Shown: one piece after another, positions 23,869 to 48,100 of the stretch
How the letters are laid out: every line of letters starts with the position of its first letter
How positions within the stretch are numbered: the first letter of the stretch is position 1
NCBI GenBank assembly: GCA_037355855.1
Contig: CM074763.1
Coordinates: forward strand, 4,030,001-4,094,000
DNA from: Pseudo-nitzschia pungens
Lineage: Eukaryota > Bacillariophyta > Bacillariophyceae > Bacillariales > Bacillariaceae
DNA length: 64,000 bases
Reading direction: 5' to 3'
Program-made: the position numbers and the translations under genes
Notes under the pieces: generated by a model
Database searches by the model: none
The model's input: only the letters and a program-made list of their open reading frames with translations
Told to the model about the DNA's origin: nothing

Positions 23869-24894
23869 CTCTTCTGATATGAGGTGTGATGGGATGCCTT
23901 CCAATCCAAATCCCATCAAAGCTTCTCCTGTTTCTCCCTTTTCCCCCTCCGACTCTTCCCCTGTCCCTCATTTTGTCCAATTAACTCTTCATGGAGAATC
24001 TCTTGCTGCTAAGGATTCTGACACTTTTGGTCATTCCTTCCCTCAAGCTCCATCCTCTAACTCCACCATCATCACATTCCAAAACATTGGACCACAGCGC
24101 AGAGCTGCCTTTATGTCCATGTCCAAGCACAACGCCCGTCAATTTGTCAAGAGCAATGACTACTTCACTACCAGTATCAGGATCACTCCCGGTGCCCATT
24201 GTGTGATGCAGACAACGAGAAGGTCTCTCATGTGCTCTCCTGCAAGGACCCTGGGGCAGTACAGCACAGTGTGTCAGCTTTCAAGGGACCACTGCAGAAG
24301 AGGCTTGAAGTTGAACAAACTGATCCATCATTGGTTGTTGCCATTGTGGATCTTCTCACCAGAGTTCGGAAGGGCCAGAACATTTATCCATCATCCTACT
24401 CACTTGCAATTGCGTCTGCTGTCAGGGCACAGAGGACTATTGGCTGGCACAACTGGCTTCTTGGTAGGTGGTCTCCTCGCTGGTACCAAATTCAGGCTGA
24501 CTACTACTCCCACATTGGAAGCAAGCGCTCTCCCAAACGTTGGGCTACAGCTATCATCCATCAGTTCTTTCTTACCTCCTGGGATCTTTGGACTTATAGG
24601 AATGAACGACTCCATGGTCCTGGGGGTACCCTGGATGCTGAACAACACCAATCTCTTGATGCTTCCATCACTTCAGAATTGGCAATTGGTGCAGCTGGTG
24701 CACTTCCCCAGTCACACTCCCTGTTACAAACCCCTTTCCACGTCCTACAAGGTTACACCCTGACTGCCAAGCGGCAGTGGCTTGCAACCATCCACCTTGC
24801 AAGGAAGCAGTATGCAGCGCCTGTCCCACCAGTGCAGCCATACCAACAGGAGGCTGCTCTTCTCAGAGCCTGGCTTACTGGACCTCAGGGTTGA
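23861..24894 (+). pseudogene. LINE ORF2 remnant (copy 3, internally deleted)
   Basis: ATG at 23861 overlaps the ORF1 stop (ATGGTTAG). About 100 codons are collinear with copy 4 up to ARQFVKSN, including the start of the endonuclease (ITFQNIGP). At about 24160 the sequence jumps into the C-terminal finger region. The original frame of that region is one base off and is read from about 24199 (CDADNEKVSHVLSCKD...) to TGA at 24892-24894. All catalytic domains are absent. Confidence 0.88.
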
Positions 24895-25069
24895 TTACAC
24901 TTTGTACCTTGGTTTTGTCTTCTGTTCCTGCTTCTTATCCTGTCCCATCCCTTTTGATACTGGATCTTATCCCAATATCTTCATTCCCATTTCACTTTCT
25001 CTCAAGTCCCTCTTTTGTGGGACTTGTTTGTCCTTTCCCCTGCTTGATGTTCAAGGTTTGTTTGAAAAT

Positions 25070-25195
25070 TTGTCGTTCTGCCACTTGGGGTCCTGACTCT
25101 ATGATGGAGGCGACGTTAAAGTCTGGTTACAGACTGAGTAATTTAGTTTCACCTTTGGTGATTAAAGTTATTTAAATACGTATATTATTATTATT
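25070..25195 (+). promoter_or_regulatory. LINE structured 3' module and (ATT)n tail
   Basis: The module begins TGTCGTTCTGCCACTTGG and holds three inverted repeats: outer GTCG...CGAC; then GTCTG-GTTA-CAGAC; then TCACC-TTT-GGTGA. It ends TTTAAATACGTATATT(ATT)n. It is present in every 3'-complete LINE copy here and, with compensating changes, in the ORF-less elements. By analogy with LINE/SINE pairs this is the likely RT recognition site for target-primed reverse transcription. Confidence 0.75.
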
Positions 25196-25261: not shown

Positions 25262-26333
25262 TACTACTAGGAAATCGAACCCAAAGACAAGTCGAAAACT
25301 ACCACCCACCTCAGGCGGTGGTGGTAGGGAGAAAAATAAAAGAACCAAGAACAACCCCACCGAGGTTTTGGTTGGTACCACACCACCAAACAACAAACCC
25401 GCCGCAACGGGTTTTGTTACACCAAGAAGTAGTAGTAATACCGGTGCCAAGATACCACCAAGACCCACCTACGAAGCCTTGCTACAACAGCTAGAAGCGA
25501 GCCAGCAGAAAGTTGCTTCTTTAGAGAGGGATGTGACAATACTGCGGGAGGATACACAAAAAGGAGAGCCCACACCGAAGGCAACTAAGCCAAAGCAGCA
25601 GATGGTACGAACCGTAAGTGAAACAAAATTAGAGATAACACAGCTGCAGTTCAATAAACTCTCTGAACACAGGAACGACGCGGGGTTGGAAGGGCAGTTG
25701 ACACGGCACATAAAGACTAGGTGGTTTCATGAATTGAAGTTTATTGTGGATGAAGATCGTGTCAAATCAGTTTTGAAGAGAGCGATTGAGTCAAAAGCTG
25801 TGATTCCGCCCCATGGTATTCCATTTCAAGTTTTTTATGAGTTTAACAGAAGGTTGGTGTACAAGGGTGTTGCCACGCTGCGGCATAATGCTCAAACTTT
25901 GGCTAGAAAACATTATCTCGGTACGTGCTTACTAAGTGGATGAATTGGATACTATTACTGCTTGGTGGTGATTGAAACTATCGTATGCATTCCAAGCTAC
26001 TCTAATGTCATAACTTTTCTACTGCTGTGTACTCCTAGAGGACACACTTGAACAAGAGGATGCTGGCATTGTGCCAAATTCATTTCGGGGTAAAGTGGAA
26101 ATTGTTGTGAAGGAGGTTGCTAGTAGTGCTGGTAGAAGAAAGAAAATGGGACTGCATCCAGAGTACAGAAGGTATGATGGCAGTGAAAATGAGGATTTTT
26201 ATTACTTTGTGACTCGGATTCTGTCAAGTGTCTGTCCAATACAGAGGGACTACAAAACCAGAAGGAAGACATGTTTGATAAGTATAATTTTCACAGTTAC
26301 GGATGAAGCATTTGCATTGATGATGATTCATAA
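25262..26333 (+). pseudogene. Interrupted host gene, middle segments (with intron)
   Basis: Coding resumes in phase at 25262 (TTTTRKSNPKTSRK...) after the Gypsy. It is Lys/Thr/Pro-rich, then forms a predicted coiled coil (YEALLQQLEASQQKVASLERD) and a globular stretch (TRHIKTRWFHELKF...VLKRAIESK). A phase-1 intron of 118 bp is inferred at 25921-26038 (GTACGT...CCTAG); it joins G and AG into a Glu codon and leads to DTLEQEDAG. The second part (KVEIVVKEV...GLHPEYRRYDGS) continues to ALMMIH at 26333, where the ORF-less element begins. No Pfam-type family is recognised. Confidence 0.7.
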
Positions 26334-28456
26334 ATACAATTTGCGCGACGCGCATTTTGTCCGACGTTCCGATGTTCCAGTACTAAAAATACGTAGATTT
26401 CTACACAACTTTACCATGCGATATCTCGCTCCCTTTTACACCCCCAATCACAACCCCAGGACCTACATGTATTAACCAAGACCTGCGCTCTTCGTTTCTG
26501 CTATCGGTTCAGTTGCTGGCTGCTTTGTTTGGTTGCTTTGGTTGCCAATTCACCACTCGGCCAAGGATCGAGCAGCAGCAGCACACCAAACCAAAAACGA
26601 CACATAATTTTCTACAGCAATTCCAGTACAGATTCTACCGTACAGCAACAGCAACACCCACAACGTACATGCCTATTGCTTCGATCTGTTTCCCAGCTCC
26701 ATTCCAAGGCACCTAAGTATATCTTATACTTACTGTTCTACACTGTTTCCAAGCTGCTTAAGTGATACTCACTTAAAGTTCTTCCACTGTAGGAATATTT
26801 CTACAAGAAATTCCAGATGTCATCTGTTTCCAAGTCTACTGCCCTGCTGGACCATAAGTGTTTTCGCTTATGGTCCTACTGTTTTCTGACCCAAGCCCCA
26901 AAGCCGCTAAGTACAGTTCGCTTAAGGCCCTACCATCTACATGTACCTCTCAGGTGTACAGTATAAATGTCATCTGTTTCCAAGTCTACTGCCCTGATGG
27001 ACGATAAGTGTTTTCGCTTATGGTCCTACTGTTTTCTGACCCAAGCCCCAAAGCCGCTAAGTACAGTTCGTTTAAGGCTCCACCACCTACATATACCTCT
27101 CAGATGCATTCTTCAACTGTCATCTGTTTTCAAGTCTACTGCCCTGCTGGACCATAAGTGTTTTCGCTTAAGGTCCTACTGTTTTCTGACCCAAGCCCCA
27201 AAGCCGCTAAGTACAGTTTGCTTAAGGCTCTCCTACCTACATAACTTTCTCAGGTGCATTCTTCAACTGTCATCTGTTTTCAAGTCTACTGCCCTGCTGG
27301 ACCATAAGTGTTTTCGCTTATGGTCCTACTGTTTTCTGACCCAAGCCCCAAAGCCGCTAAGTACAGTTCGTTTAAGGCTCCACCACCTACATAACCCTCT
27401 CAGGTGCACACTTCAACTGTCATCTGTTTTCAAGTCTACTGCCCTGCTGGACCATAAGTGTTTTCGCTTAAGGTCCTACTGTTTTTCTGACCCAAGCCCC
27501 AAAGTCGCTAAGTACAGCTTGCTTAAGGCTCTCCTACCTACATAACCCTCTCAGGTGCACACTTCAACTGTCATCTGTTTTCAAGTCTACTGCCCTTCTG
27601 GACCATAAGTGTTTTCGATTATGGACCTACTGTTTTTCTGACCCAAGCCCCAAAGTCGCGAAGTACCCTTTACTTAACGCTCTACCACCTACTTATACCC
27701 CTTCAGTTCACAGTACAGCTGTCACCTGTTTCCAAGACTACAGGCCTGCTGGTATTAAGTGTTCTCACTTAGAGCCCTTGTTTCCAAGCTACTACGACGT
27801 TCTAACAGGAGGACAGCAGCTGTTTTGAATTTCGTAGTAGGCTCCACCGCCTCTATGTGTTATACCTAGGTACCAGCAGGTACCACTAAGATGGCAGGTA
27901 CTGAATGTACGAGCATTACCTGGGAAATTTTGCTCGTGTTCTTTTGATGTACCATACGGTAAGGTTACGGGAATGTGTTTGGGGATGACTACTCGCATTA
28001 CTGGTGATGCTGCACTCCAGCATTCAGAGAGGAGTTTTGCTTTTGTACGCTGACCACTAGCATTACAGATACCATGTATCTAGTCAGGGTTTTGCTTGTG
28101 TCAGCTGACCACTAGCATTACGGATGCTGCACACCAGCATTGGAGGGACAGTTTTGCTTGTGTCTTTCCCTTTCACGTTCTTGTTACCCCGTTTCCTGTA
28201 CGCTTTGCAACAGCAGTGTCTGTTGTGCTCTGGACTGGTTCGTTTTTTTCCTGTTTCTTACCAAGGTTTGTTTGCAAAATAGTCGTCTTTACAACCTGGG
28301 GACCAAATCCCCCATGGTTGAGGCGACGCGTCGTTCTACAACTTGGGGCCTAAACTCTCTTCGATTGAGGGGACGATAAAGTCTGGTTACAGACTGAGTA
28401 GCTTTTAACCACCTTCGGTGGATTTTCCTACTTAAATAAGTATATTATTATTATTA
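26334..28456 (+). mobile_element. ORF-less LINE-like element 1 (RIME-like non-autonomous partner)
   Basis: 2.1 kb with a perfect 16-bp target duplication at 26318-26333 and 28457-28472. The first ~350 bp are homologous to the LINE 5'UTR (GCGACGCGC, TTTTGTCCGACGTTCCGATG, GATTTCTACACAACTTT, ACACATAATTTTCTACAGCA). The body has six 150-bp tandem units carrying a long hairpin. The 3' end contains two copies of the CGTCGTTCTACAACTTGGGG...GGCGACG domain, the GTCTG-GTTA-CAGAC hairpin, CCACC-TTC-GGTGG, and a TACTTAAATAAGTATATT(ATT)n tail. There is no ORF of note. It interrupts the host gene exon. Confidence 0.9.
26819..27870 (+). repeat. 150-bp tandem repeats with perfect hairpins (6 units plus partial)
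   Basis: Units start GTCATCTGTTT at 26819, 26969, 27119, 27269, 27419 and 27570; a diverged seventh starts at 27721. The spacing is 150-151 bp. The best-conserved units contain arms GGACCATAAGTG and CGCTTATGGTCC around TTTT, a 12-bp stem with one T-G wobble. A weaker second hairpin (CTAAGTACAGTTCGCTTAAG) follows about 60 bp later. Open frames through the array are artefacts of a period divisible by three. Confidence 0.88.
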
Positions 28457-28472
28457 TGATGATGATTCATAA

Positions 28473-28884
28473 TGAGTATGATGTTTGGGTGAATCATGTT
28501 GAGCAAAAAATGAAGGGCAGCAGTGGCGGCCGGATTGTGAGAAGGAAGAAGAAAAAGAAATTTTGTGATCAGTACAGTGGAGAGCAGCAATCATGGTCGA
28601 AGGAAGGTCTAGCACTGTTCAATAACTTGTGCAGGGAGATTGAGGTGCTGAGGAAAGACCAGCAGACGGGTAAAGAATGTGAGGAAAGGTTGAGAGTGAG
28701 GATCCGTCGCGAGGCTGCTGATGAGAACAATCAAAACAACAACAGTCCGTTGGATGAGGACTGGGGGCCAGAGGAAGAAGTTGCTGAATACATTAGTCCG
28801 GAGCTAAAAGCTTTGCTAGATGTAAAGGAAGAGGGGGAGAACTTTACTGGTGGTGACAATACGGGTGAAGGAGTTATGGATTGA
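28473..28884 (+). pseudogene. Interrupted host gene, last coding segment
   Basis: After the right target duplication the frame continues as NEYDVWVNHVEQKMKG, then a basic run (RRKKKKKFCD), a charged helical part (LFNNLCREIEVLRKDQQTGK) and an acidic C-terminus, ending at TGA 28882-28884. Codon phase is exactly restored when the element and one duplication copy are removed (ALMMIH-NEYDVW). The gene was therefore intact when the element arrived, or has been only recently silenced. Confidence 0.7.
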
Positions 28885-29525
28885 ATTACGGCGATAGCAA
28901 CTGTTTAAAAATTGTTGGTAGTAAATTTGTGTGGTGTGCATGAGAACAATCGAATCGAGAACAAAAATTGTTACTGTAAATTTTAAAAATTTGTTGAAAG
29001 ATTGACTTCAATTTTGCATCACAGTATTTCAAAATTTATTAGCTGGGGTAGTGATTCTTGTGAGGAGAGGGGTTGCGATTTCTGGAGGAGTCGATAATTT
29101 TTTGTGAAGAATTTTTTGAATATATTTGAAATTCTTGAGGGGTGGGCCGGGAAATAATTTGTGTCGTCGTGAAAAAAAAAATATGGGAGTGAATTTTGAG
29201 TGAGTCACATTTAAAAAAAAATAGGGGGAGAGGGGAATTTTTCTAAGAAAATAACTTAATTTTTTTGAAAAAGGCACGAGAAAATTAGAATGGGGTTGAT
29301 TAATTTGATTAAGTGACTGAAGAAAATATTTGAGTCTTACAAAAAATTTGGGTCGCGTTCGATTTGTTTCTCTTTTTCTCAGAGTTGGGGTAGTAACTCG
29401 GTCGCAATTGAGGTTGCGAATCGGGAAGGGGGTACGGATGGAGCTACATCAATTTAACCAGGAAATAAATTGTGACCCCCCCAAATAAATTCTTGAGAGC
29501 GGTCGCAAAACAGTTTTCGGACGAT
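28885..29525. other. AT-rich intergenic region, partly paralogous to 780-960
   Basis: No gene. Poly-A and poly-T runs are frequent. Words such as GGGTCGCGTT, CGGTCGCAATTGAGGTTGCG and GGTCGCAAAACAGTTTT correspond, inverted, to GCGACCAATTGCAACC and AAACTGTTTTGCGACC at 820-900. This marks an old duplicated intergenic repeat. Confidence 0.55.
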
Positions 29526-30070
29526 ACACTTTTTTAACTTTGCTACTAATACCGTACTTACACTCCTACCCACGGAAACTACCAACAACAATCCCAACAA
29601 TCCCAACAATCCCAACAATCCCCTTGCGGTAGGTGCCCCCCGTAGGAAGGGTACGGCATTATGACCCCTGGGGTACGGCACGTACCCTTTGGGGGTACGG
29701 GGAGGGCGTGCATGAATTCCAGTACTCATGCCACGTAAAAAAGAAGGGTACCCGTTCGTTCACACACTTATTTTAGGTCTAATCCATACTTTTTTCCCAC
29801 ACTTTTAAACTACCGGTACATACATTACCCATGTTCTTCTTCTCCAGCAATCAAATCACCAAAACATTTGCACCTCGACCACCACGCCACTCTTAACACT
29901 GTTGGGGTTGTTGGGGTTGTTGGGGTTGTTGGGGTTGTTGGGGTTGTTGGGATTGTTGGGATTGTTGGGATTGTTGGGGTTGTTGGGTTGTTGGGTTGTT
30001 GGGGTTGTTGTTGGTAGTTTCCGTGGGTAGGAGTGTAAGTACGGTATTAGTAGCAAAGTTAAAAAAGTGT
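29526..30070. mobile_element. MITE-like terminal-inverted-repeat element, 545 bp
   Basis: The ends ACACTTTTTTAACTTTGC and the inverse form perfect 66-bp inverted repeats (29526-29591 and 30005-30070). Internally both sides lead into (CAACAATCC)n / (GTTGGGGTT)n tandem repeats. The flanking dinucleotide AT (or TA if the boundary is shifted) is duplicated. Comparison with the empty paralogous site at about 776-850 shows exactly this sequence added. A TA/AT duplication suggests a Tc1/mariner-type transposase acting in trans. No ORF is carried. Confidence 0.88.
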
Positions 30071-30611
30071 ATATTCGCACTTTTCAGAAGTGTGGTTTCG
30101 ACCCATGTCCCCGTAAGGGTACATCCGACCCAAGGCACTACCGGTACCGTAGGGGACCATTTTTCTTCGTAATCTTAATTTTTTCCATCGCGCATTCGCG
30201 CACCCCCTTATTATATATATATTATCACCCCTGGAGTAAACGACATTTTAAATTCTCGGGGGGCTCAGCTAATAAGAATGACGTAGTAGGAACTGTTTTA
30301 GTTTTTCATGTGGCAGTGGCCTTTCAAACGTTAAAAACCGTTAATCAGTCCCCATTTATGGTGCCCGAGTAGTAGTAAGAATACCGGTACCGTACGTACA
30401 CCGACCACCAGCAACCAGCGACCATCGACCATCATCACCCGAAAACGCGAATACAGTAGATAATCAATAATCACCTCTCTCGAGAATGAAGTAAGGTTAC
30501 AAGAGGACAAGAACGGTAGATTGCTCCAGTCCCAATGAAGGTGGCACATCAGTTGAAATCGATTATCAGATGCACCCAGAGCTCCTATAACGATCGACAA
30601 GAATACTAATA
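30071..30611. other. Intergenic region upstream of mrps6
   Basis: No gene is seen. The first ~50 bp match 776-808 inverted, and CGTTAAAAACCGTTAAT near 30330 matches 690-705. The rest is unique and presumably contains the mrps6 promoter. Confidence 0.4.
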
Positions 30612-31333
30612 ATGGTCTTTTACGAGTGTGTTCTGTCGACAAAACATACCACCCGTGAGTAAAGAATAGACTGTTGCATCTAGATTCGTGCGGTCGCAGT
30701 TGTCTGATAGGCAACAAATGTTGATGCAAAGAAACGAAACGAAACCATCATCCGATAGTTTTTGTTTTGATTCGGTCATTCATTTGGGATTGTTTGCTTA
30801 CAGTACTCTTTTCGTGTTTGGTCATATTTGAATTTGTTTGATCTTTCCTCCCATTCGGGACTGTTGTCTTTCAACATGTTTTCTCGACATTTCTGATTAA
30901 CGATGATATTTTGACGACAACGCCTTTCATTGGGGTTCAAAATGCTATTTGTCACTCGTTTGTCAACGTAGACTTCAAAGCGTTGACGGCTTTGATCAAA
31001 GAAGTGTCGTTAAAGGTGGTAGAAAATGGCGGGATTGTTCGAAGCATTCAAAATCATGGCTTGAGAACATTTCCGCATCGGTTCAAGGCGAAATATCCTG
31101 ATTATTTGACGCAACAAAGATACTACGAGCAGGGGCGATTCATAAGTGTATATTACGATGCCAATCCGACGACGTTGAAAAAGGTAGAAAATATTTTGAA
31201 CATGAATGATCAGGTCTTAAGGGTCACACATTTGAAATCGCGATCGAAACTGGATTGGATCAATTATAGACAAGACAAAAATCCATATGTGCAAAAGGTA
31301 TCGAAGCAAGATCGCGATGCATTAGAGCATTAA
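30612..31333 (+). CDS. mrps6: Mitochondrial small-subunit ribosomal protein bS6m (two exons)
   Basis: Exon 1 (30612-30654) starts at ATG and reads MVFYECVLSTKHTT, the typical bS6 N-terminus (M-x2-YE-x-V). A GTGAGT donor at 30655 and a TAG acceptor ending at 30971 define a 317-bp intron. Exon 2 joins as HFKALTALIKEVSLKVVENGG and continues through IVRSIQNHGLR, YYEQGRFISVYYDANP and NDQVLRVTHLK to TAA at 31331-31333, giving 134 residues. The pattern (GG-x-V-x2-I-x-N-x-G, G-x-F/Y strand, NDQVLR-x3-LK) fits bS6, which binds 18S-like mitochondrial rRNA next to bS18m. Mature bS6m often lacks a cleaved presequence. No competing reading is plausible. The splice sites are inferred. Confidence 0.85.
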
Positions 31334-34300
31334 AAGTGGAGAATACAACATCATCGGAAGATGCTATCACCGAGTACGTTGGAGCAAAAAGCATGACATT
31401 TTCTTTCAGAAGATTGGTTAGTGAATCGTACATCTACGACCATTTTCAGATTATGTGTGCAGTGCTGTTCAACGGGAGTTCACTTTAGTGAGCGATCTTG
31501 CGTTGTTACGTTCAGAGCACTTGGAAGCTTGCGAACTCGAACGGATCCCTTCTATCGATTGGTAAAGTGGTATCTGTCTTTTTGCTTTTCCTCGATGACC
31601 CAAAATTTGGCTTTCATATCATAATCCCGTGTGTCCAAAGTTGTTGCTCGTCTACGAGCAAGGTCATGTCGCAAGATCATCCGCAAAAAACTGCCAAACG
31701 CTGAGGCTATCTCATACTTTCCGTTAACAATGATTGAAGATATCAATGGTGACGGGTGCGTCAACAAGGTTGCAAGTGAGCAACCTACGTGTATTATTTT
31801 TCGCGTACCGGTATTGTAGTAATACCTCTATGGTGTAGAGACTCATTGTTCGTATCCCGGATGACATGTGATAGTATTAAGTGTGTTTTCGATGTTATCA
31901 AAGTCGCAACCTGGTTGCATTTTAAGGGGTACCCGTCATTCAAGATATCAACGTACCTCAGCTATCCCTTGAGAACTTGGGGTGCATGGCAGATTTCTCA
32001 CAATGTAAAAACTGAACCATAGGCCACCACTGGTTCATCCACCTTCGTTGTATCTCTGTAAGTGTACTCCTCAGCAGTTACTGCGTATCGCGAAAGAGTT
32101 GAAATGGATGATTGTTTGTTGCAAATCAACAGAAATGAACAGCAAATAAGCAGGAATAAGGGTATTCGCTGGACATCAATGCTGCAGAAACATTGGAGTT
32201 GATGACTTTTTCCTTCGTTTCATTCTCCCTTCACCTCAGAATTCATCTTCGTTTGTACTCGAACGGATTATAGTACAATTCTCGTAGTAATGGGATATGA
32301 ACCAAACCTCCCCTTTCTTTCGTATTTATTTCTACTCTTTTCCGAGAAAGAAGAAAAAATTTCAATTATCTTATCACGGTAGTTTATGTCTATTTTGACA
32401 AAAGCAAAAGTGTGGATAGTATCGTCAAAGATGACAAAGAAAGTTTTCGGAAACATTACATCAATATAATGAGATGTTGTAGGTCCCTACCCTGTAATTG
32501 ATAAAAGGATTCTCATATGTTACAGCAGTACGTTGGGGCTGTATGTGAAGTAAAAAGTTCTAATGGGCAACAAAGCCTCATCACCAGGTGAATTGAGTGT
32601 CACCTGCCGCGAGGTAAACTGCGCTGTGACTTTCGATAAGAGCTTCACAATCAAAAGAGCATTGCACTTAAATACTTTCTCAGCAACAATCGTGAGATTG
32701 CCTCCTATTTTCAATCATTGCGTAACATGAGAAGATACAGATCATTGAATCACCATCGAAACCAGCTTTAATATAAAGTGAATAAGAGCGCTCGAAACCT
32801 TCTTTTGTTAAATAATTTCGTCGATGAACGAATTACTCTCTGGAATGAGACATTTAAGTACGATGATCTAAACAAAGCAAAAGAACAAATCCAAAACAAA
32901 GAACGAAAAGCTCGCATACCTCCCGAAAAAGACAGCAAAAGGGTTGAATTTACAGAACGAAACAAATCAATACGCAGAACGTCCTCGCCGAAAATATAAA
33001 GTGAGTGATTGCGATTTTTTTCTGAAAATTGTAGCGATATAATAAAATTTTTCTACTGTCAGAATGAATTTGGAATCATTTCGCTCACAAACACGAGGTC
33101 ATGTCGCAATGCAGTCGAAGTAGGATACTTCAAACGTTACAAATGATCTACATGCGCTGCAGTGGTTCGCTTACGGTTAATATCTTTAATATCTCTCCCA
33201 TTTGAAAGTTGGGGATTGATCATCCAATTACTTTTTCATCATCGACTTAATTTTTCACCAATTATAGCATCCGAAAGAAATAGAATTGAATATGGCACTG
33301 CTTCCTAATTCGGAAGTGGCGGAAGGGAACAACTCTCTATTTGGACCATGTCTTTGACACAGGCTGAAAGCGAAGCCTCCACTTGCGGACCAACCATATA
33401 TGTCCTCCAGGTTTCGCAATGAAGCATGATACAAAGATCCGTTTATGATGAACAGCAGAAATTTTCTCCCAATGATTTTCAAGCTAAGGATAACAAAGAA
33501 GCCGTTGATACTTTGAGACCTCTACCAAGAATTCCCAATGCCACACTTTGCCTTCTCTGCTAGATTTTAATCATGCAAAATATCATAGAAGTATGGAGGT
33601 AGGGCTCATTCATCTACATTGTTATATAATCCAGAGACATCCTGTTCCTTTAAAGAGAGAGTTCCTGTTTCGCATGCAATGGCATCTGATCGACTCTGTT
33701 ATTTAAAATCTTTCCACTTTCGTACGAAATGAGCTTCGCTGGCAAATTTTTTTTCACTCAAATGACTCATACGTCGCCAAAACGTCTTGTTTTGCAAAGA
33801 GTACTTTCTCCCTACATCACGTTTGGATTGAGCTTTGTTGTACGATAGTCATAACCATGTGCTCTCTCAATGTCTCATAACTGGTGACAATTTTTCCATC
33901 TTTTCACCTGATGGTTTCGGCAACGTTGCAACAGAAAGAAATTGAAAGCGTCTCCGCCGAATTGGAAAACTTAAAGTACACAGTTACTTCCATCCTTTCG
34001 AAAACTCCAAAAATCGTTTCCCATGAATAAATGCTTCGACCAGCAGAACTGAATAAGATCTAAGCTCAGCACTGAGTGTTTAACACGTTTTTCGCGGCGT
34101 TTGACACGATACGGAAATCGAAGTCGACGATGAATTTCAAGGAGAATAGAACGCGAACCTGAAACATCACAAGAAAAGTCTCACTTTTTTGTTTCTGTAC
34201 CGATCAGTGAACTTCACCAATAGCAAGTCGAAAGTTATTATCAATATTTCCCCTTATATTGTGAAAGAATTGTCGTAAAATCGAGTCGACGAGAGTGAGA

Positions 34301-36190
34301 AGAATGAAGATTCAGCTCTTTCCGCTTTAACGTTACACGGACCTACCACATGTCATTGATTTAAGGTTTTAAAGATTGTTTTGCGTATTTCGTATTTGTC
34401 ACTGAAGTAGTTCAACGTCATTTTGCCGAAGGTAACAGAATGGTGATCGTCAGATACATGGGAGTGTGTCGTCAGATTAGGATGCATTTTTACTGTTTTG
34501 GCTCAACTTCAAGCTCACGTCGGAAGAAATTTTCTTGAACTTACTTTTTTGTTTTGGAAGCAAAAAGGATTGAAAAATCTTCGTTGGTCCGTCAAAGATA
34601 TTGAGAGCTTCATTGCTAATCTCTCATTTTCGTCCTGTGATGTTATCACCTTGTCCTCGGATCAAAAGGTCCCGGGAGATTTTTGGCGAAAGCTGATTGA
34701 AGCTCCATCGCTTTCTCCCTGCGTGAAAGCTATGTGCTCTATTGTTTTCGGTTCTTGCTGAAATTGCGTTTGTTCACAGTTGGCACGAACGGGCAAAATA
34801 GCTGTGACTCATAATCAAAAGATATCATATGCGCTTCCGTAATAGATAGAGCCCAAAATGGATATTGGAAAGTAAAAGACGATTGTTGTTGATGGATGCC
34901 ATGGACTGAGAAGCAGACAGAAAATAAGAATTAGCTGCAAATGCTTGACTTTGAACGCGATTGAATTCAGAAATCCAATAATTTTCGAAGGATAACAAGG
35001 ACGAACTCGACGAAATCAATTTTTTATTTCATGTACCGCAGACATTTCGCTGTTGAAAAGGTTGAGTTGACTGTTCAAAATTGATGTTGCTTCTCAGATT
35101 CCAACGTCTGGACAAGATAGGGGTATCATTTACAAACAGACCCTATCAAAGATATGAAATAAGACAAAAACAGCAACAAAAAATTTCGAATAACATTAAA
35201 GCAGCATGAAACTATTTAACAACGCTCAACCGCTTGCTCACGTAACAGACTCTGTCGTGAAGAATCTAAAAAGTTCTTGCGCGTTATTGATTGTTGCCAA
35301 AGAAGCGCTAAGAACCATGAAAGCAACAGGGTGTCGACTCCGCAAACTCAACAAAGGTTGAAAGTATAGTTATTTCAACAACTGCGGCTTCGGAGTGAAA
35401 CCAAAGAACCCGATTTGCTTGGATTTAGAGTGTGATAGTTACAAAGCTGCTTGTTCTGAAGACCACTTAGACCAGCTTGTTACCAAGAAATTTGTCACAG
35501 TGGAGGCTTACCTGATACAAAATGTTGCAATGTAAAAGTAAAAATTCTAAAACACCACAGAAAGCGGAACAGTAGAGGCAGCTATAGCTGAATCGTAATT
35601 GGAGCTATGTTGAGTTCCTATCAGACCCATTGAAAAGAGCTCTGCCATGGAATATTGGTTGAATAGGGCATGTTTCCAACTGGTTTAGTACACAAAATCT
35701 AAATTTTCTCGTTCCTTTCGAGTGCACATAAACAAATTTATGAATTTTATTATGTCAAGTTCATTAAAGGCATCAATCCGAGCTCCCTACGTGTTTCTAG
35801 GAGCTTTCATTTCTTCCAACTCTGAACAGCTGTTAGGAGAAGAATGTCTTCAACGTCCGTTCAAATAAGAGCTAGTAGTATTCAGACTGATGGTTGCTGA
35901 TACTTTAGTCGATTATTAGCTACTTCATGTCCAATTGGGTGAAGAGGCCGACAAACAACGCTAAGCTTAGCAGTTTTGATGGTGGATATCGCGTCATCAT
36001 TGCACAGAAGCTCAGTGATGTATGATTAGCAAGGACACCGCAATCCTGGAACTTGATTATTTCCTTCTAAGTCTTTTGACAATGTTTATTGCATCGAAAG
36101 TATAATATTTGCTCTTGGTCTCTCTGTCAAGTTCACATGGATTCAGAATGATCGAAAGATTATCTTTTTCGACTAGTATGATGTTTGCAC
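31334..36190. other. Five kb without a recognisable gene
   Basis: Composition is fairly even and not tandemly repeated. Only short frames exist. The more protein-like ones are 32778-32999 (+, charged, LNKAKEQIQNKERKARIPPEKD), 34498-34761 (+, FLELTFLFWKQKGLKNLRW) and 32520-32714 (-). None has a convincing start, splice sites or known domain. It could be a decayed gene or region, a long non-coding RNA, or ordinary intergenic DNA. Confidence 0.4.
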
Positions 36191-36310
36191 ATTATAATAT
36201 ACTTATTCAAGTAACTTCGATCACCAAAAATCGACCTAATTTACTCAGTCCATCACCACATTTATCTTAGCCTCCATCAAAGAGTAAAGAATCTAAGTAG
36301 TAGAACAACA
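36191..36310 (-). mobile_element. LINE 3' module only, diverged copy
   Basis: On the minus strand this ~115-bp piece runs from TTGTTGTTCTACTACTT to the tail and carries degenerate versions of both hairpins. It starts at the same module boundary as the short copy at 40709-40834 and directly follows the tail of the next LINE fragment. Confidence 0.75.
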
Positions 36311-37205
36311 AATAATAGTAATATACGTAGTTAAGTAACTTCAACTACCAAAGGTGGAACTAAATTACTCAGTCTGTGACCAGACTTTCACGTCGCCGCC
36401 ATCAAAGAATCAGGACCCCAAGTGGTAGAACGACAATTTTTCAAACAAACCTTGAACAACAAGCAGGTAAAGAAACAAAACCAAGGCCCACCAAAAAGGG
36501 ACTCGAGAGAAAGTAGAGTTAGAAGGAAGACAGTGGGAGAATTCCAAAGATCAAAAGGCAAGAGACATAATAAGAAGCAGACAGAGTAGAAAACACCAGG
36601 TCTCAAGGTGGAAGCACTCTTAGGATCCACTAAGCCAAGCGCGCAGTAGAACAGCTTCCTGTTGGTATGGATGTACAGGTTGGACAGGTACTGCAAACTG
36701 TCTCCTGGCAAGGTGGATGGTTGCAAGCCACTGCCTCTTGGCAGTCAGGGTCTAACCTTGTAGGACTTGGAAAGGGGTTTGTAAAAGGGAGTGTGACTGG
36801 GGAAGTGCACCAGCTGCACCAATGGCCAATTCAGAGGAAATGGAAGCATAAGGAGATTGGTGTTGTTCAGCCTCAAGTGTTCCCCTGGGACCATGGAGTT
36901 GTTCATTCCTGTAAGTCCAAAGATCTCAGCTAGTTAGAAAGAACTGATGGGTGATAGCTGTAGCCCAGCGTCTGGGAGAGCGCTTGCTGCCAATTTGGGA
37001 CTAGTAATCAGCCTGGATGCAATGCCAGAGAGGAGACCACCTATGAAGAAGCCAGTTGCGCCATCCAATTGTCCTCTGAACCCTGACAGCAAAAGCAGTT
37101 GTAGGGGGATAGGATGATGGATAAATGTTCTGGCCCTTCCAAACCCTGGTGAGAAGATCCACAATGGCAGCAACAAAAGATAGATCAGTCTGTTCTACCT
37201 CAAGC
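36311..37205 (-). mobile_element. Old 5'-truncated LINE fragment
   Basis: This has a tail and hairpins (CCACC-TTT-GGTAG variant) at 36311-36390, the 3'UTR, and ORF2 C-terminal sequence on the minus strand up to about 37205. There it stops in the finger-to-end region. Many substitutions, a premature stop (CTAG at about 36928) and frameshifts show it is much older than the other copies. Confidence 0.85.
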
Positions 37206-37964
37206 CTTGTAGTGATATTCGCTCGTCAGCGAATAAGGGAAAACATTAACAAAAGAGCAGCATGGAGTGCTGGCAAATAGTGAGACTACAGAGGATACTG
37301 TTGGAACGCTATTGCATATACTTAGTTACTACAAGATACTTCCCTAGAGGTACAAAGGGATCATCAAAAGGGGAGAGCATGACAGTTGTCTTATTTTAGG
37401 TGGAAAAGAAAGAGTGGAGGGAGCTGAGCTGTCTTGTATCATAGTAATAACACTTAGCACTGTACAGCCCTGTACAGGATTGTACAGTTCTGTAGGATCA
37501 GTATTGTAGTCTACGGAGTAGCACTTGGAGTTGCTTTATTGAGTGGTTTGTTCTTGTGCTATGCTAGCTCGCCTATGCTAGCTTGCTTGCTTGCTAGCGC
37601 TCGCTTTATAACTGTCTGGGTCATGGCATCGGATTATAATACATATTGTACACTCGTACCCATACCCTGGCAATAGCATACTATGATAGCATAGTATATA
37701 CCAACTATCTCGTAACAGTAGCAACCTTAACCTTGTAGCTACAGTGTGCTAGTGCCGGTGCTATACCCGGGGCTTGTGTGACTGGTACAAATCCTACATG
37801 AGGACCCTGGTATCCTGTGGTTAGCACCCTATAGCAGCTTGTAATAAGCCTGTTGCTAAGCCTATATGCTAAGCCTGTTGCTCTCAGCTCTAGCACTCAG
37901 CTCTAGCACTCAGCTTAGTACCTTGTAGATAATTACTGGAGGCTAGCGCATGTAGCCCCATTAC
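37206..37964. other. Repeat-like non-coding segment, possible LTR remnant
   Basis: No gene. TGTTGGAACG at 37300 resembles the start of a Copia-type LTR, but I could not find a matching end or target duplication. Short palindromic words (CTGTACAGCCCTGTACAGG, TATGCTAGC...GCTAGC) are common. From 37855 on it matches the repeat at 541-640 (inverted) and carries GCTAAGCCTGT words. Confidence 0.4.
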
Positions 37965-38606
37965 AATAATAATAATATACGTATTTAAATAACTTTAATC
38001 ACCAAAGGTGAAACTAAATTACTCAGTCTGTAACCAGACTTTAACGTCACCTCCATCATAGAGTCAGGACCCCAAGTGGTAGAACGACAAATTTTTCAAA
38101 CAAACCTTGAACATCAGACAGGGAAAGGAACAAAACAAGTCCCACAAAATAGGGACTTGAGAGAAAGTGAGATGGGAAGGAAGATAGTGGGATAAGATCC
38201 AGTATCAAAAGGTATATGACAGGATGAGAAACAGGAACAGAAGACAAAACCAAGGTACAAAGTGTAATCAACCCTGAGGTCCAGCAAGCCAGGCTCTGAG
38301 GAGAGCAGCCTCTCGTTGGTATGGCTGCACAGGTTGGACAGGTGCTGCATACTGCTTCCTGGCAAGGTGGATGGTTGCAAGCCACTGCCTCTTGGCAGTC
38401 AGGGTGTAACCTTGTAGGACTTGGAAAGGGGTTTGCAAAAGGGAGTGTGACTGGGGGAGTGCACCAGCTGCACCAATGGCCAATTCAGAGGTGATGGAAG
38501 CATCAAGAGATTGGTGTTGTTCAGCATCAAGGGTACCCCCAGGACCATGGAGTCGTTCATTCCTATAGGTCCAAAGATCCCAGGAGGTAAGAAAGAACTG
38601 ATGGAT
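37965..38606 (-). mobile_element. LINE copy 6, 3' part (interrupted by ORF-less element 2)
   Basis: A 3' tail, both hairpins, the 3'UTR and the ORF2 C-terminus on the minus strand. The LINE reading stops at 38606 and resumes at 40570 after the inserted element and its 18-bp target duplication. It ends at about 40708. The copy is thus 5'-truncated within the region between finger and C-terminus. Confidence 0.88.
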
Positions 38607-40551
38607 ACAATTTGCGCGACGCGCATTTTGTCCGACGTTCCGATGTTCCAGTACTAAAAAATACGTAGATTTCTACACAACTTTACCATGCGATATCTCG
38701 CTCCCTTATACACCCCCAATCACAACCCCAGGACCTACATGTATTAACCAAGACCTGAGCTCTTCGTTTCTGCTATCGGTTCAGTTGCTGGATGCTTCCT
38801 TTCGTTGAGTTTGTTGCCAATTCACTGCTCGACCGAGGGATCAGCAACAGCAGCAGCACCAAAACCAAGATCGACACATAATTTTCTACAGCACTTCCAG
38901 TACAGATTCTACAGCAATTCACCAATAATTTTCGTTGTATTTCTGCTTCGATCTGTTTCCCAGCTCCATCCCCCAAGGCCCCTAAGTATATCTTGTACTT
39001 AATGTTCTACACTGTTTCCAAGCTGCTTAAGTGATTCTCACTTAAAGTTCTTCCACTGTAGGAATATTTCTACACGAAATTCCAGATGTCATCTGTTTCC
39101 AAGTCTACTGCCCTGCTGGACCATAAGTGTTTTCGCTTATGGTCCTACTGTTTTCTGACCCAAGCCCCAAAGCCGCTAAGTACAGTTCGCTTAAGGCCCT
39201 ACCATCTACATATACCTCTCAGGTGTACAGTATAAATGTCATCTGTTTCCAAGTCTACTGCCCTGCTGGACGATAAGTGTTTTCGCTTATGGTCCTACTG
39301 TTTTTCTGACCCAAGCCCCAAAGCCGCTAAGTACAGCTTGCTTAAGGCTCTCCTACCTACATATACCTCTCAGATGCATTCTTCAACTGTCATCTGTTTT
39401 CAAGTCTACTGCCCTGCTGGACCATAAGTGTTTTCGCTTAAGGTCCTACTGTTTTCTGACCCAAGCCCCAAAGCCGCTAAGTACAGCTTGCTTAAGGCTC
39501 TCCTACCTACATAACTTTCTCAGGTGCACACTTCAACTGTCATCTGTTTTCAAGTCTACTGCCCTGCTGGACCATAAGTGTTTTCGATTATGGACCTACT
39601 GTTTTTCTGACCCAAGCCCCAAAGTCGCTAAGTACAGTTTGCCAAAGGCTCTCCTACCTACATAACCCTCTCAGGTGCACACTTCAACTGTCATCTGTTT
39701 TCAAGTCTACTGCCCTGCTGGACCATAAGTGTTTTCGATTGTGGACCTACTGTTTTTCTGACCAAAGCCCCAAAGTCGCTAAGTATCCTTTACTTAACGC
39801 TCTACCACCTACATATACCCCTTCAGTTCACAGTACAGCTGCCACCTGTTTCCAAGACTACAGGCCTGCTGGTATTAAGTGTTCTCACTTAGAGCCCTTG
39901 TTTCCAAGCTACTACGACGTTCTAACAGGAGGACAGCAGCTGTTTTGAATTTCGTAGTAGGCTCCACCGCCTCTATGTGTTATACCTAGGTACCAGCAGG
40001 TACCACTACGACGGCAGGTACTGAATGTACGAGCATTACCTGGGAAATTTTGGGTTACGGGAATGTGTTTGGGGATGACTACTTGCATTACTGGTGATGC
40101 TGCACTCCAGCATTCAGAGAGGAGTTTTGCTTTTGTACGCTGACCACTAGCATTACAGATACCATGTATCTAGTCAGGGTTTTGCTTGTGTCAGCTGACC
40201 ACTAGCATTACGGATGCTGCACACCAGCATTGGAGGGACAGTTTTGCTTGTGTCTTTCCCTTTCACGTTCTTGTTACCCCGTTTCCTGTACGCTTTGCAA
40301 CAGCAGTGTCTGTTGTGCTCTGGACTGGTTCGTTTTATTTTTTCCTGTTTCTTACCAAGGTTCGTTTGCAAAATAGTCGTCTTTACAACCTGGGGACCAA
40401 ATCCCCCATGGTTGAGGCGACGCGTCGTTCTACAACTTGGGGCCTAAACTCTCTTCGATTGAGGCGACGATAAAGTCTGGTTACAGACTGAGTAGCTTTT
40501 AACCACCTTCGGTGGATTCTCCTACTTAAATAAGTATATTATTATTATTAA
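38607..40551 (+). mobile_element. ORF-less LINE-like element 2
   Basis: 1.95 kb, flanked by a perfect 18-bp target duplication (38589-38606 and 40552-40569) inside a LINE. The organisation matches element 1: 5' end ACAATTTGCGCGACGCGC, a LINE-5'UTR-like start, 150-bp hairpin units (five rather than six), doubled 3' domain, hairpins and (ATT)n. Its near-identity to element 1 implies recent activity. No ORF. Confidence 0.92.
39088..39990 (+). repeat. 150-bp hairpin tandem repeats of element 2 (5 units plus partial)
   Basis: Units begin GTCATCTGTTT at 39088, 39238, 39389, 39539 and 39690; a diverged one begins near 39840. The unit number differs from element 1 by one, so the array expands or contracts in whole units. 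Confidence 0.88.
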
Positions 40552-40569
40552 AAGAAAGAACTGATGGAT

Positions 40570-45277: not shown

Positions 45278-48100
45278 GTGACTCTTCTGGTAGTGCTCCA
45301 GTCTTTTCTTTTGGTTCCCCTGGAGCTTTTCCTTGTCCAGACCAACGTTGGACCTGTTGTTGCTGCTGTACCCTGTTTCCCAGCCTACAACCTATCAACC
45401 TATCAACTGGCATTTGCCCGCAACCGGTGCTTCTCCTGCCCCGGCCTTTGCCCTCAACCGGTGCTTGGCTCCCAGCAGCAGGGCTCCCAGCAGTCTGGAC
45501 CCCGGCCCCCAGTCTCCCAGCAGCCAGGATCCAACCCGGCAGGCTCCCAGCTGCCAAAGGGCTCTGGAACCTCAGGCAAGGTCCCTGCTTCATCCATCCT
45601 CAAGCAATCTACTCTTGCCTTTTCCTCTGCCCAGAAAGCTGATCCCTCTCAGCAGCAAGCACGCCAATCCCAACGCCAGGAGGCTCTGGCTGCTGCCAAC
45701 AGGGCTCATTCCGCTTCCTTCTTCTGGTGTTTTTATGGTAAGGGTCCCTGTTCTGGCAAGTCTCCTATCCCATCTGCAATTCATGCCTTTCGAAAATCTC
45801 CAACTGGTAACCGGTTATGGGCTGGGTGTCCAAGCCCCACACACTTTTTCAGCAAGAAGGAGGGTAAAGACAAAAAATCCATCCATGATATTTGCCGGAC
45901 TGCCATCCCTCCTGTTTATGCTCAGGTTTTTCCGGACACTCCAGACTGGCGCAATGCCTCTGTAGCTTCCTTGGCTTCTATTGCCTCTGCTTGCTTTCAA
46001 GACTCTGCCCCTGCCTGGACCAAGCAACCACCTGGCCAGGCTCTGAAGCAATGTCTTATTGGTTTGGTCAAGATGTCTCCTGAGTGTTTTGATGACCTGT
46101 ATTGTGAAGGCAACCTTTTGCCTAGCACTGAAGGCAAAGTATGGTGGGCAGCCAATCAGGTGCTTGGTTCTCACTGGCATTTCAAGAAGCGCCCTCCTAC
46201 ACCTGCGCCACCAGTGGCTGATGATGCTTCCACTTCCAAATCTTCCACTTCCAAATCAGTGTCCTTTCTTCCTGGTGGTGGTGATGCTACTGTCTTGTCC
46301 TCCTCTGCTGGGCATTTCCTCCAACGCCGAGGGGTTTGCTCCAGTGATTCTAGAGCTCCAGTGGATGTCACTGCTGGCACCAAGTGTTCTCATAGTTCTT
46401 ATGTCACTCTGTCCCTTCCAAGGTTGATGTCACAACGCCCTGGGGAACTGTATGATAAGCTGCTCAAGTCTCTCAAGGAAGCTTTGGATCTTCTATGGAC
46501 TGTTGACAAGCGCCTGGTGTTGTATGTTTTTCCCTCAAGAGCCAGGCTCAACCCCAAGGCCAAGCCTGTTACCAAGTTTTGGGCGACACTTCCTGACAGG
46601 AAGACCTTGGAATTGTATGTTGCTCAGCTATGGCTTCGCAGTAGAACTGCTCCTCATCTACGATTCTTTGTGGGACACAGTGCTTCCCTGGAGAAACTCT
46701 TTTCAGCACAATTGCTCCAGAGGCTCAGAGACCGTGACATGGACCTGAAATATGACCACATACAGGCCCCAGTTATTGTCACCTGTGGCTTTCTCCTTGG
46801 ATCTTACATGCAGAGTTTTGATCTTGACCACTACAACGAATTGCTTCAGACTCATCCCAGGTTTCAGGCATGTCCTATTGCTGTTATCAGGAAGAATATC
46901 AGCCTTGACAACTCCAGAACTCCTGATCCCAATCCGGTTCTGGCTGCTCATGTTTTATGTGATGCAACAAAGCGCGCCCAAACTGTTAAGCTCCTCAAAG
47001 CCCAGTTCAACCGTTGCAAACCTTCAGACATTGCCTCTTTACCTGATGGTAAATTCTACAAGTTTATTGAGACAGCTACCAATCCTTCTGACAGACCTCT
47101 TCCCCCCTCCAAGCTCAAGACTGTTCGCCAGGCTAAGCACCGCCAAGCCAAATTTATTGAGAGCCATGAAACTGCTCCTGTTCTGGGGGTAGTTGATCTT
47201 GATCTTCCAGTTGACTTGGGCCAAGGGCTGGGTTTGAAGACACTGCGCAGTGTGCTTCTGGGTATCAGAACCCGTGACAATTGGTCATGGCCTCTTTTTC
47301 TTTCTGTCGATACCAGTTCATACCGAGGCGAGATCCTTGCTTTGTACAACATCACTACCAAGGCTGAAGCAATGGCCATGTTGTCTTTCCTGCCTATTAT
47401 ACTGGAAGCTCAGTATGGTTCTTGTGTTAGACAATGGTTCTCTTCTGAGTGCTTGACTGAAATGGAAGCTTACCATTGGGATGATGCAGTCAATTGTGTT
47501 GTGGAAACTGCACCTGCTGCAGATCCAATGCAGGATAACTCTCTTCCCTTTTTTGGTGATGGGGATGCACGAGATTGGGAACTTGTTGATGATGACTTGT
47601 CCGTTGACCTTGCTCCTGATCTCACTTTTGATCTGGATTTGCACTTTAACCTCCAAGCCCGTGCTGACAGTGGTGGTGGAGGCTTTGATGATTCTCAATC
47701 CATGGATACTTTAGCGACTGGCACTTCCAATCTTACTGCTGTCCAGGCCTCAGCGCCTGCATGTGCTGTTCCTCCTGGCGGTGATCCTACCCATGTGGCC
47801 AAGGCTGATGCCTCCCCTGGTATCTCTCCTGAAGTTCCCCCTGAAGTTCCTGACCCTCCCCATGATGCCATGGCTGGTGACCTCCCTGTGGCCTCTCCTG
47901 AGTCCTCAACTGCAGTTCCTGCTGCCGGTGGTGGGGAAGATGCAGCCTCTGCATTGAGGCTTGGAGTTGCTGCAATTGCATTCTCTTCCAGTCATGATGC
48001 TAGTGTCAGTGATTTGAGCCATGCCAATGTCTCCACCAAATCAGCTCCGGCAACTCTTCCTTCCGTGCGACAGACTCGGTTTCCTTCTGATCATGGTTAG
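45278..48100 (+). CDS. LINE ORF1 protein (copy 4)
   Basis: The frame is open for 940 codons. The MPPPPPASRRKR start of copy 3 is absent, so the start used here is uncertain and the N-terminus may be truncated. The N-terminal region is Gln/Pro/Ser-rich (GSQQQGSQQSG) in place of the SNSGK repeats. From FFWCFYGKGPCSGK on it is collinear with copy 3, with scattered substitutions and a few residues of length difference (SKSSTSKSVSF). It lacks recognisable zinc knuckles. The role, by analogy with other LINEs, is RNA binding and chaperone activity. It overlaps ORF2 by ATGGTTAG at 48093-48100. Confidence 0.82.
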   Translation: MTLLVVLQSFLLVPLELFLVQTNVGPVVAAVPCFPAYNLSTYQLAFARNRCFSCPGLCPQPVLGSQQQGSQQSGPRPPVSQQPGSNPAGSQLPKGSGTSGKVPASSILKQSTLAFSSAQKADPSQQQARQSQRQEALAAANRAHSASFFWCFYGKGPCSGKSPIPSAIHAFRKSPTGNRLWAGCPSPTHFFSKKEGKDKKSIHDICRTAIPPVYAQVFPDTPDWRNASVASLASIASACFQDSAPAWTKQPPGQALKQCLIGLVKMSPECFDDLYCEGNLLPSTEGKVWWAANQVLGSHWHFKKRPPTPAPPVADDASTSKSSTSKSVSFLPGGGDATVLSSSAGHFLQRRGVCSSDSRAPVDVTAGTKCSHSSYVTLSLPRLMSQRPGELYDKLLKSLKEALDLLWTVDKRLVLYVFPSRARLNPKAKPVTKFWATLPDRKTLELYVAQLWLRSRTAPHLRFFVGHSASLEKLFSAQLLQRLRDRDMDLKYDHIQAPVIVTCGFLLGSYMQSFDLDHYNELLQTHPRFQACPIAVIRKNISLDNSRTPDPNPVLAAHVLCDATKRAQTVKLLKAQFNRCKPSDIASLPDGKFYKFIETATNPSDRPLPPSKLKTVRQAKHRQAKFIESHETAPVLGVVDLDLPVDLGQGLGLKTLRSVLLGIRTRDNWSWPLFLSVDTSSYRGEILALYNITTKAEAMAMLSFLPIILEAQYGSCVRQWFSSECLTEMEAYHWDDAVNCVVETAPAADPMQDNSLPFFGDGDARDWELVDDDLSVDLAPDLTFDLDLHFNLQARADSGGGGFDDSQSMDTLATGTSNLTAVQASAPACAVPPGGDPTHVAKADASPGISPEVPPEVPDPPHDAMAGDLPVASPESSTAVPAAGGGEDAASALRLGVAAIAFSSSHDASVSDLSHANVSTKSAPATLPSVRQTRFPSDHG

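Follow-up and report, generated by a model that had tools for sequence, protein, structure and literature searches.

A Non-coding Element Family in Pseudo-nitzschia pungens Has Both Ends in Common with a LINE of the Same Genome and Carries a Multiplied Segment of the LINE 5' UTR

The genome of the diatom Pseudo-nitzschia pungens contains several hundred copies of an element of about 2 kb, here called N, which has no convincing gene of its own and has both ends in common with a LINE of the same genome. Between these ends lies a tandem array that originates from the 5' UTR of the LINE. N copies are flanked by target duplications, and near-identical copies occur at separate sites. Judged by this anatomy, N is most likely mobilised in trans by LINE proteins. 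We assign a probability of about 0.84 to the reading of N as a non-autonomous retrotransposon that descends from this LINE or from one closely related to it, and that is moved in trans by the LINE ORF2 protein. The window analysed is a stretch of 64,000 nucleotides (assembly GCA_037355855.1, contig CM074763.1, positions 4,030,001 to 4,094,000, forward strand). It contains three N copies, all within 30 kb of one another, together with LINE sequences (Table 1).

Table 1. Features of the N copies and of the LINE in the window (positions are those of the window)
Feature	Position	Strand	Remark
LINE copy, left and right target duplication	18975-18995 / 25196-25216		21 bp, read by eye
LINE copy, both ends	18996..25195	+	Internal deletion taking most of ORF2
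LINE 5' UTR segment homologous to N repeat unit	19545..19664	+	E 6.5e-11
N copy 1, left target duplication	26318..26333	.	16 bp, perfect match to right one
N copy 1, both ends	26336..28456	+	2,121 bp, (TTA)n tail
N copy 1, 5'-terminal stem-loop	26336..26360	+	Shape as in LINE
N copy 1, 5' region aligned to LINE 5' end	26336..26638	+	74-76% for this copy
N copy 1, 150-bp tandem array	26818..27752	+	6.2 copies, homologous to LINE 5' UTR segment
N copy 1, N-specific stretch	27775..28261	+	No significant LINE match, best E 0.057
N copy 1, 3' end resembling LINE 3' end	28262..28456	+	Hairpins, then (TTA)n tail
N copy 1, right target duplication	28457..28472	.
N copy 2, left target duplication	38589..38606	.	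18 bp, perfect match to right one
N copy 2, both ends	38607..40550	+	1,944 bp
N copy 2, 150-bp tandem array	39087..39872	+	5.2 copies
N copy 2, right target duplication	40552..40569	.
LINE ORF1 frame	45278..48100	+	940 aa, no Pfam domain
LINE ORF2 region	48021..53933	+	Two pieces
LINE ORF2, first piece	48021-49283	+	Below-cut-off endonuclease match
LINE ORF2, second piece	49299-53933	+	Reverse transcriptase and below-cut-off RNase H match
LINE 3' UTR and tail	53934..54233	+
N copy 3	54234..55766	+	5'-truncated, directly joined to LINE tail; array of 4.2 copies

The first-pass annotation had described copies 1 and 2 as elements with perfect target duplications, and both are real. They are 92-94% alike. 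The bounds proposed for them (26334-28456 and 38607-40551) required correction. The first bases of the element are ACAATTT, which places the start of copy 1 at 26336, after two extra bases (26334-26335). Copy 2 ends at 40550. Copy 3 is truncated as claimed: its 5' end is missing, and it adjoins a LINE tail that ends at 54233. A simple duplication around this copy was sought and none was found; its right flank recurs at 2358, 38406, and 41274. Tail junctions occur in both orders, LINE followed by N (54233/54234) and N followed by LINE (L045). Such mixed junctions are no more than suggestive of mobilisation by LINE proteins, and they also fit insertion into old tails.

The LINE has a length of about 12 kb. 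LINE copies beyond the window have duplications of 18 bp (determined by script) and about 20 bp (by eye). For its reverse transcriptase, a sequence search of the PDB was empty, and a profile search yielded chance-level matches only, none of them to a reverse transcriptase. A LINE family with deleted ORF2 was considered as an intermediate and rejected, the deletion junction of the copy at 18996-25195 being found once in the genome.

Genome-wide pattern scans detected 371 starts and 356 ends of N; for the LINE, the counts were 243 and 602, respectively. The reversed-pattern control returned 0 each time. The claim of a family rather than a set of local copies was thereby borne out. Perfect target duplications of 13-22 bp, some of these lengths including up to 5 tail bases, were present in 26 of the 27 N copies for which both flanks were compared, the sole exception being L049. 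Among mismatched flank pairs, used as a control, a duplication of at least 11 bp appeared in 1 of 702. The 27 copies were those with both ends recognised by the script; L057 (altered tail), L075, L077, L078, and loci cut at one end were excluded. Nearest-neighbour identity among 28 N copies reached a median of 99.3% and a maximum of 99.9%, in a sample skewed towards the window copy because 24 of the 28 had been found by searching for its close relatives. The near-identical copies sit at different sites, and N shows signs of recent movement. No long ORF-bearing version of N was encountered in the sample. For 32 N starts listed on contig C1, the nearest N end among the matches listed lay within 1.7-3.2 kb in 26 cases and at 15.5 kb in one, and for five there was none within 30 kb; one mismatch was allowed for the N starts and none in the other three lists.

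The 5' end, claimed to be shared over about 350 bp, was recovered as an alignment of 303-309 bp of N with four LINE copies at 72.7-75.6%. N copy L074 could be aligned with LINE nt 1-668 at 70.6%. Both elements begin with a 25-nt stem-loop, in which at least four of the five inner stem pairs are kept in all 14 distinct 5' 25-mers. In a tree of 23 N and 21 LINE 5' ends, the two groups are about 25% apart, and N forms one long separate branch with a support of 1.0 (one of the 24 sampled N copies, L052, was left out because its start is not ACAATTT; these 24 were skewed towards close relatives of the window copy). This position indicates that none of the LINE copies read gave rise to N by a recent deletion, and that a LINE outside the sample could be the true partner. 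A 5' ribozyme was dropped as a candidate, since the region 26300-28500 gave no Rfam ribozyme match up to E 5 and the whole window gave none that reached gathering score.

At the 3' end, the proposed common hairpin and tail architecture was confirmed: 126 bp match one LINE copy at 77-78%, and in both elements the hairpins are alike and a (TTA)n tail is present. Across 20 distinct 3' ends, 99.7% of the hairpin cells are paired. Two pairs have changed on both sides, both on the single split between N and LINE. This is no excess over the shuffle control (mean 1.5; 298 of 500 shuffles had at least two), and a changed pair likewise appears in one slid control. Only by cells is there an excess, 17 compared with 6.5 in the shuffles, which reached this value in 0 of 500. 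The ends of N and LINE differ in sequence yet keep the same folds.

The interior of N had been described as a body of about 1 kb of structured tandem repeats replacing the ORFs. The 150-bp repeats are real, but they are not a new module. The body consists of LINE 5' UTR, one segment of which has been multiplied, and of about 480 bp of its own without a match among the LINE sequences compared. The repeat unit is homologous to nt 549-690 of the LINE 5' UTR in four of four LINE copies (profile E 5.8e-13 to 1.7e-10), and reversed LINE sequence gave a best E of 0.45. The four LINE copies contain one clear unit and weaker related stretches. By homology, the array is a multiplied piece of the LINE's own 5' UTR and not foreign sequence. 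The description as structured was weakened: in folding, a single unit has a modest advantage over its shuffles (z -1.25), 22 of 200 being equally good. Its main hairpin is retained in 90% of the cells, and cells with double changes numbered 14 compared with 7 to 22 in slid controls. RNA structure of the repeat unit was rejected, there being no covariation above the slid controls.

The earlier statement that N has no ORF proved too strong, as the longest ATG frames of 24 copies span 77-291 aa, most of them running through the repeats. The repeats might encode a small protein with 50 aa per 150-bp unit; the unit length is divisible by three, and many copies have an open frame across the repeats, 291 aa at the longest. 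However, 87 distinct units, compared over their first 66 nt, carry no codon-position signal. Variable columns number 12, 13, and 11 for positions 1-3, and pairwise differences 5809, 6678, and 3839, with the fewest at position 3. In N copies with good duplications (L042, L044, L003, L058, and L063), moreover, the longest frames measure merely 77-120 aa. As far as the sequence goes, a coding role of the repeat frame is refuted and can be regarded as very improbable; on this evidence N has no coding sequence of its own. Hardly any weight falls to an ordinary SINE with a pol III head (tRNA, 5S, or 7SL) and a LINE-derived tail. N is short, non-coding, high in copy number, and LINE-like at its 3' end, but its head is LINE 5' UTR and its length is 1.5-2.1 kb. 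ARAGORN detected no tRNA in the window, and Rfam at E 5 on N copy 1 returned only two chance-level matches (E 0.97 and 3.1), so a SINE origin is refuted on the head. Local gene conversion or segmental duplication as the source of the shared ends would fit the proximity of the window copies and the similarity of copies 1 and 2. It is contradicted by hundreds of N copies on many contigs and by the unrelated sequences of the duplicated targets, and we consider it refuted, with a negligible residual probability.

An unlikely alternative of more substance is that N is mobilised by another LINE family with ends nearer to its own, the LINE of the window being a mere cousin of the true partner. The divergence of the 5' ends and the separate clade of N speak for it, and the LINE sample favoured close relatives of the window copy. 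On the other hand, a nearest N end at a distance of 9-13 kb is seen for none of the 32 N starts listed on C1. Among the matches listed there, two LINE starts are followed by an N end, at 9.7 and 12.2 kb, but these ends belong to N elements with starts of their own (7616495 and L078). Eight of the 41 matches to the N 5' end were read, and all eight are N copies. Twenty N ends on C1 were chosen by eye from the listed matches; of the six whose sequences were read, five are long N elements, and of one (L077) a remnant of about 105 bp is left. LINE and N have the type of tail, the length of the duplications, and the 3' hairpins in common.

To our knowledge, it is mainly in trypanosomatids that non-coding elements retaining the two ends of their LINE have been described. 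RIME copies have target duplications, as do those of N. Of what characterises a RIME-type element, N shows the lack of a coding sequence, 5' and 3' ends shared with an autonomous element, and target duplications with a 3' tail; mobilisation by the partner's proteins is presumed. According to PMC2323293, RIME of Trypanosoma brucei is 0.5 kb long and a plain deletion of ingi. Like N, it is non-coding through loss of the coding part, has its two ends in common with an autonomous non-LTR element of the same genome, and has a copy number comparable to that of its partner. N differs from RIME in its greater length, its distance from the LINE at the 5' end, its multiplied 5' UTR segment, and its own stretch. 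It is also without an Rfam ribozyme match, unlike the ingi/L1Tc pairs (RIME, NARTc) with their 5' Pr77/79-bp signature and HDV-like ribozyme, a comparison that for N covers the Rfam ribozyme searches. The ingi/RIME-type relationship proposed in the first-pass annotation thus holds for a non-coding element with target duplications and both ends in common with a co-resident LINE, but not for a body made of a new module. N appears to work like RIME, as a LINE derivative without ORFs. This likeness is one of organisation and is not taken to mean membership of the ingi/RIME family.

UnaL2 and UnaSINE1 have a common 3' stem-loop. N is like UnaSINE1-type SINEs in its 3' hairpin common with the partner LINE and unlike them in its head, which is LINE 5' UTR; PMC2323293 names UnaL2/UnaSINE1 as a LINE/SINE pair and derives SINE heads from tRNA, 5S, or 7SL. 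Mouse and rat L1, according to PMC8191783, likewise have a tandemly repeated 5' UTR segment whose number varies between copies and which acts as a promoter. There the array is in the autonomous LINE, whereas in N it sits in the dependent element and its promoter role is putative. SVA and LAVA of hominoids are described in PMC4432496 as composites of Alu-like and other modules with units of 30-50 bp; like N, they are non-autonomous, have a central variable-number tandem repeat, and are LINE-mobilised in trans, as is presumed for N. Unlike them, N has both ends in common with its LINE, an array from the LINE leader, and no composite of Alu-like or SINE-type modules. The design of N combines the known themes of RIME, rodent L1 monomers, and VNTR composites.

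For N as a LINE-derived element moved in trans, we propose the following course. N has retained the LINE 5' UTR, taken to carry an internal promoter and beginning with the stem-loop, and the LINE 3' end, whose hairpins and TTA tail would be recognised by the LINE reverse transcriptase. ORF1 and ORF2 are lacking, and a 5' UTR segment (about LINE nt 550-690) is multiplied into the 150-bp array. The LINE ORF2 protein would act in trans on the RNA of N and insert copies of it at new sites through target-primed reverse transcription. By analogy with mouse L1, the array most likely represents repeated promoter or leader monomers. A further, rather doubtful possibility is that N escalates against the LINE through its multiplied leader module. 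The monomers of the array might serve as promoters or bind protein, with the effect that more N RNA is made or more LINE protein captured. The 5' stem-loop and the hairpins at the 3' end, preserved while their sequence turned over, might form a two-ended recognition system for the LINE machinery that favours full-length insertion.

A search of open-licence papers, PMC12803021 among them, which in part yielded mostly off-topic ones, turned up no account of an element of this kind from a diatom; this is weak evidence of novelty. N represents such an element in a diatom, a dependent element of several hundred copies with a multiplied piece of the LINE leader. Because the ends of N and LINE differ in sequence and keep their folds, what the LINE machinery requires at each RNA end becomes directly testable. 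N has about as many starts as ends and the LINE far fewer starts than ends, which allows the completeness of inserts to be compared with template length. If the leader-module reading is true, an escalation in the arms race between a LINE and its parasite would be recorded in a diatom genome.

All three copies of the short non-autonomous family (N) that the first-pass annotation had described in the window were located, and the target duplications claimed for copies 1 and 2 are both present (see table). The genome that holds the window (66.9 Mb, 28 contigs) was scanned with terminal patterns of N and of the co-resident LINE at ≤3 mismatches. The scans returned 371 N starts and 356 N ends, against 243 LINE starts versus 602 LINE ends; reversed patterns gave 0 matches in each of the four scans. 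A 3' remnant of about 105 bp was found in one fetched locus (L077:2455-2560), and some of the counted N ends are therefore short remnants. Starts and ends were paired on contig C1 among the matches listed. The nearest N end lay at 1,749-3,211 bp for 26 of 32 N starts; one of the other six had an N end at 15.5 kb and five had none within 30 kb. For the LINE, 15 of 30 starts had an end at 9.6-12.8 kb, eight at 14.9-28.4 kb and seven none. N ends also followed two LINE starts, at distances of 9.7 and 12.2 kb, each part of an N element with its own start (one is locus L078). Thus no long, ORF-bearing version of N was encountered among the C1 matches listed.

Features of the window and of selected genomic loci (window positions unless a contig, C, or fetched locus, L, is named)
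Feature	Position	Details
N copy 1	26336-28456	16-bp target duplication
N copy 2	38607-40550	18-bp target duplication
N copy 3	54234-55766	5'-truncated; adjoins a LINE tail
Insert in the N copy 3 array, within one unit	54896-54922	27 nt; LINE 3' tail alone, TTTAAATACGTA + TTA repeats; an extremely short insertion; no clear target duplication
LINE-to-N tail junction	54233/54234	
Tandem LINE 3' ends	40708-40962	127-bp unit, twice
LINE ends on same strand	C1:4117656-4118097	spaced about 170 and 270 bp (among the matches listed)
LINE	18996-25195	both ends and open ORF1 frame; ORF2 largely deleted; insertion site is the end of an LTR
LTR retrotransposon	13179-18996	identical 152-bp terminal repeats; reverse transcriptase, RNase H and integrase matches
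LTR retrotransposon	55797-61640	about 94% like that at 13179-18996; opposite orientation
Further open frames 5' of ORF1 in a long LINE copy	L069:1511-3828	low-complexity, Extensin-like matches below cut-off
Silicon-transporter frame	C3:7803825-7808126	one 1,696-aa open frame; about three consecutive domains

The original observation is real and was for the most part rightly interpreted; the correction that matters concerns the body of N. Sharing of the LINE 5' end, put at ~350 bp, was recovered as 72.7-75.6% identity over 303-309 bp from the start of copies 1 and 2, and sharing of the 3' architecture as 77-78% over the final 126 bp, within a LINE-like 3' part of the last 195 bp or so. The tandem repeats said to stand in place of the ORFs are present; judged by sequence comparison, they are derived from the LINE itself. 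All four LINE copies compared have a 5' UTR segment that matches a profile of the 150-bp repeat unit (E 5.8e-13, 1.2e-12, 6.5e-11 and 1.7e-10), with weaker unit-related stretches further downstream; LINE sequence read in reverse gave E 0.45 at best. The first 658 bp of another N copy, L074, aligned to LINE nucleotides 1-668 at 70.6%. Because of the profile match and this alignment, N is read as a LINE leader with one segment multiplied. Arrays held 3-6 strong units in 28 N copies and nine in copy L075. The roughly 480 bp between the array and the 3' end gave no significant LINE match (best E 0.057).

Insertion was assessed from the flanks. Perfect target duplications of 13-22 bp, some of which take in up to 5 tail bases, were found in 26 of 27 N copies with both ends recognised, the exception being L049; mismatched flanks gave at least 11 bp in 1 of 702 comparisons. 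By coordinates, two LINE copies are about 12.6 and 11.9 kb long, the middles having been read in part. The longer has an 18-bp duplication by script; the shorter has one of about 20 bp just 3' of the tail by eye, the script's 30-bp match having fallen elsewhere (L073:1195). The internally deleted window LINE has a 21-bp duplication, read by eye from its flanks. Nearest-neighbour identity among 28 N copies, 24 of them from searches favouring close relatives of the window copy, had a median of 99.3% and reached 99.9%, which speaks for recent movement. In a tree, 23 N 5' ends grouped together apart from 21 LINE 5' ends (support 1.0, branch 0.33). This suggests that N is an old lineage that has formed subfamilies of its own, and not the product of fresh deletions arising repeatedly from the LINEs sampled. 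In contrast to N, the internal-deletion junction of the window LINE occurs once in the genome.

Both ends were examined as RNA. A 5' terminal stem-loop of one shape was found in 14 distinct 25-nt ends of N and LINE copies. Its outer stem is largely set by the search pattern, so that only the inner stem is informative; this has five pairs in 10 of the 14 and four pairs in the rest, and when the inner 13 bases of two N-type sequences were shuffled, all five pairs formed in 0.7% and 0.2% of trials. For the 3' end, 92-nt sequences were compared, 20 of them distinct; of their 340 pair cells, 99.7% stayed paired, compared with 20-41% in slid controls. Between N and LINE, columns 46-73 change from G-C to A-U and columns 54-66 from C-G to U-A; since both double-sided changes fall on one N-versus-LINE split, they represent about two events. 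Counted as changed pairs, the signal (2) does not exceed that of shuffles (mean 1.5; 298/500), and the +3 slide control also has one changed pair. Changed cells (17 versus 6.5 in shuffles) and the covariation score each exceed all 500 shuffles. Single-sequence folds were modest, with z values for N of -1.70 (5' end), -1.52 (3' end) and -1.25 (unit), and for the LINE of -1.38 (3' end), -0.71 (unit-homologous segment) and -0.10 (5' end).

LINE ORF2 matched reverse transcriptase (E 8.7e-12), with endonuclease (E 4.5e-4), RNase H (E 0.017) and zf-RVT (E 0.016) below the cut-off; ORF1 had no Pfam domain at E 0.01. When the window ORF2 piece was aligned with 22 of the 93 relatives (23 sequences), domains at E 0.1 were reverse transcriptase (14), zf-RVT (10), endonuclease (9) and RNase H (6). 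Cylindrotheca closterium supplied 2 of the 93 relatives, at 35-37% identity. Silicon-transporter matches were strong at several places in the genome (best E 4e-232), and 14 control genomes gave a single match, below cut-off. These matches and the Cylindrotheca relatives make a diatom the very probable host.

N RNA would most likely begin at ACAATTT, from a putative internal promoter retained from the LINE leader. Its 3' hairpins and tail would then most likely be recognised and bound by LINE ORF2 which, presumably supplied in trans, would nick the target, and N would be copied by target-primed reverse transcription. Both N and LINE terminate in a (TTA)n tail. That N starts about equal N ends, while LINE ends exceed LINE starts, would be explained by the shorter template of N (2 kb, against 12 kb for the LINE). 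By analogy with mouse L1, whose 5' UTR monomers are reported as promoter (PMC8191783), the array may serve as promoter monomers. Besides the LINE-to-N tail junction of the window, fetched loci contain an N-to-LINE junction (L045), N-N junctions (L045, L048, L067) and LINE-LINE junctions (L042, L068 and others). Such junctions fit template jumping and insertion into tails alike.

A literature search of open-licence papers, with results partly off-topic, found no such diatom element. VNTR composites, as described in PMC4432496, share with N a central array and mobilisation in trans, which for N is an inference, but not the LINE ends. RIME is presented in PMC2323293 as ingi minus its central 4.7 kb, probably mobilised by ingi protein. 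Set against that account, N differs: one segment of the leader is multiplied, a further stretch of roughly 480 bp is its own, it has diverged more from its LINE, and no ribozyme match was obtained; in its mode of working it resembles RIME.
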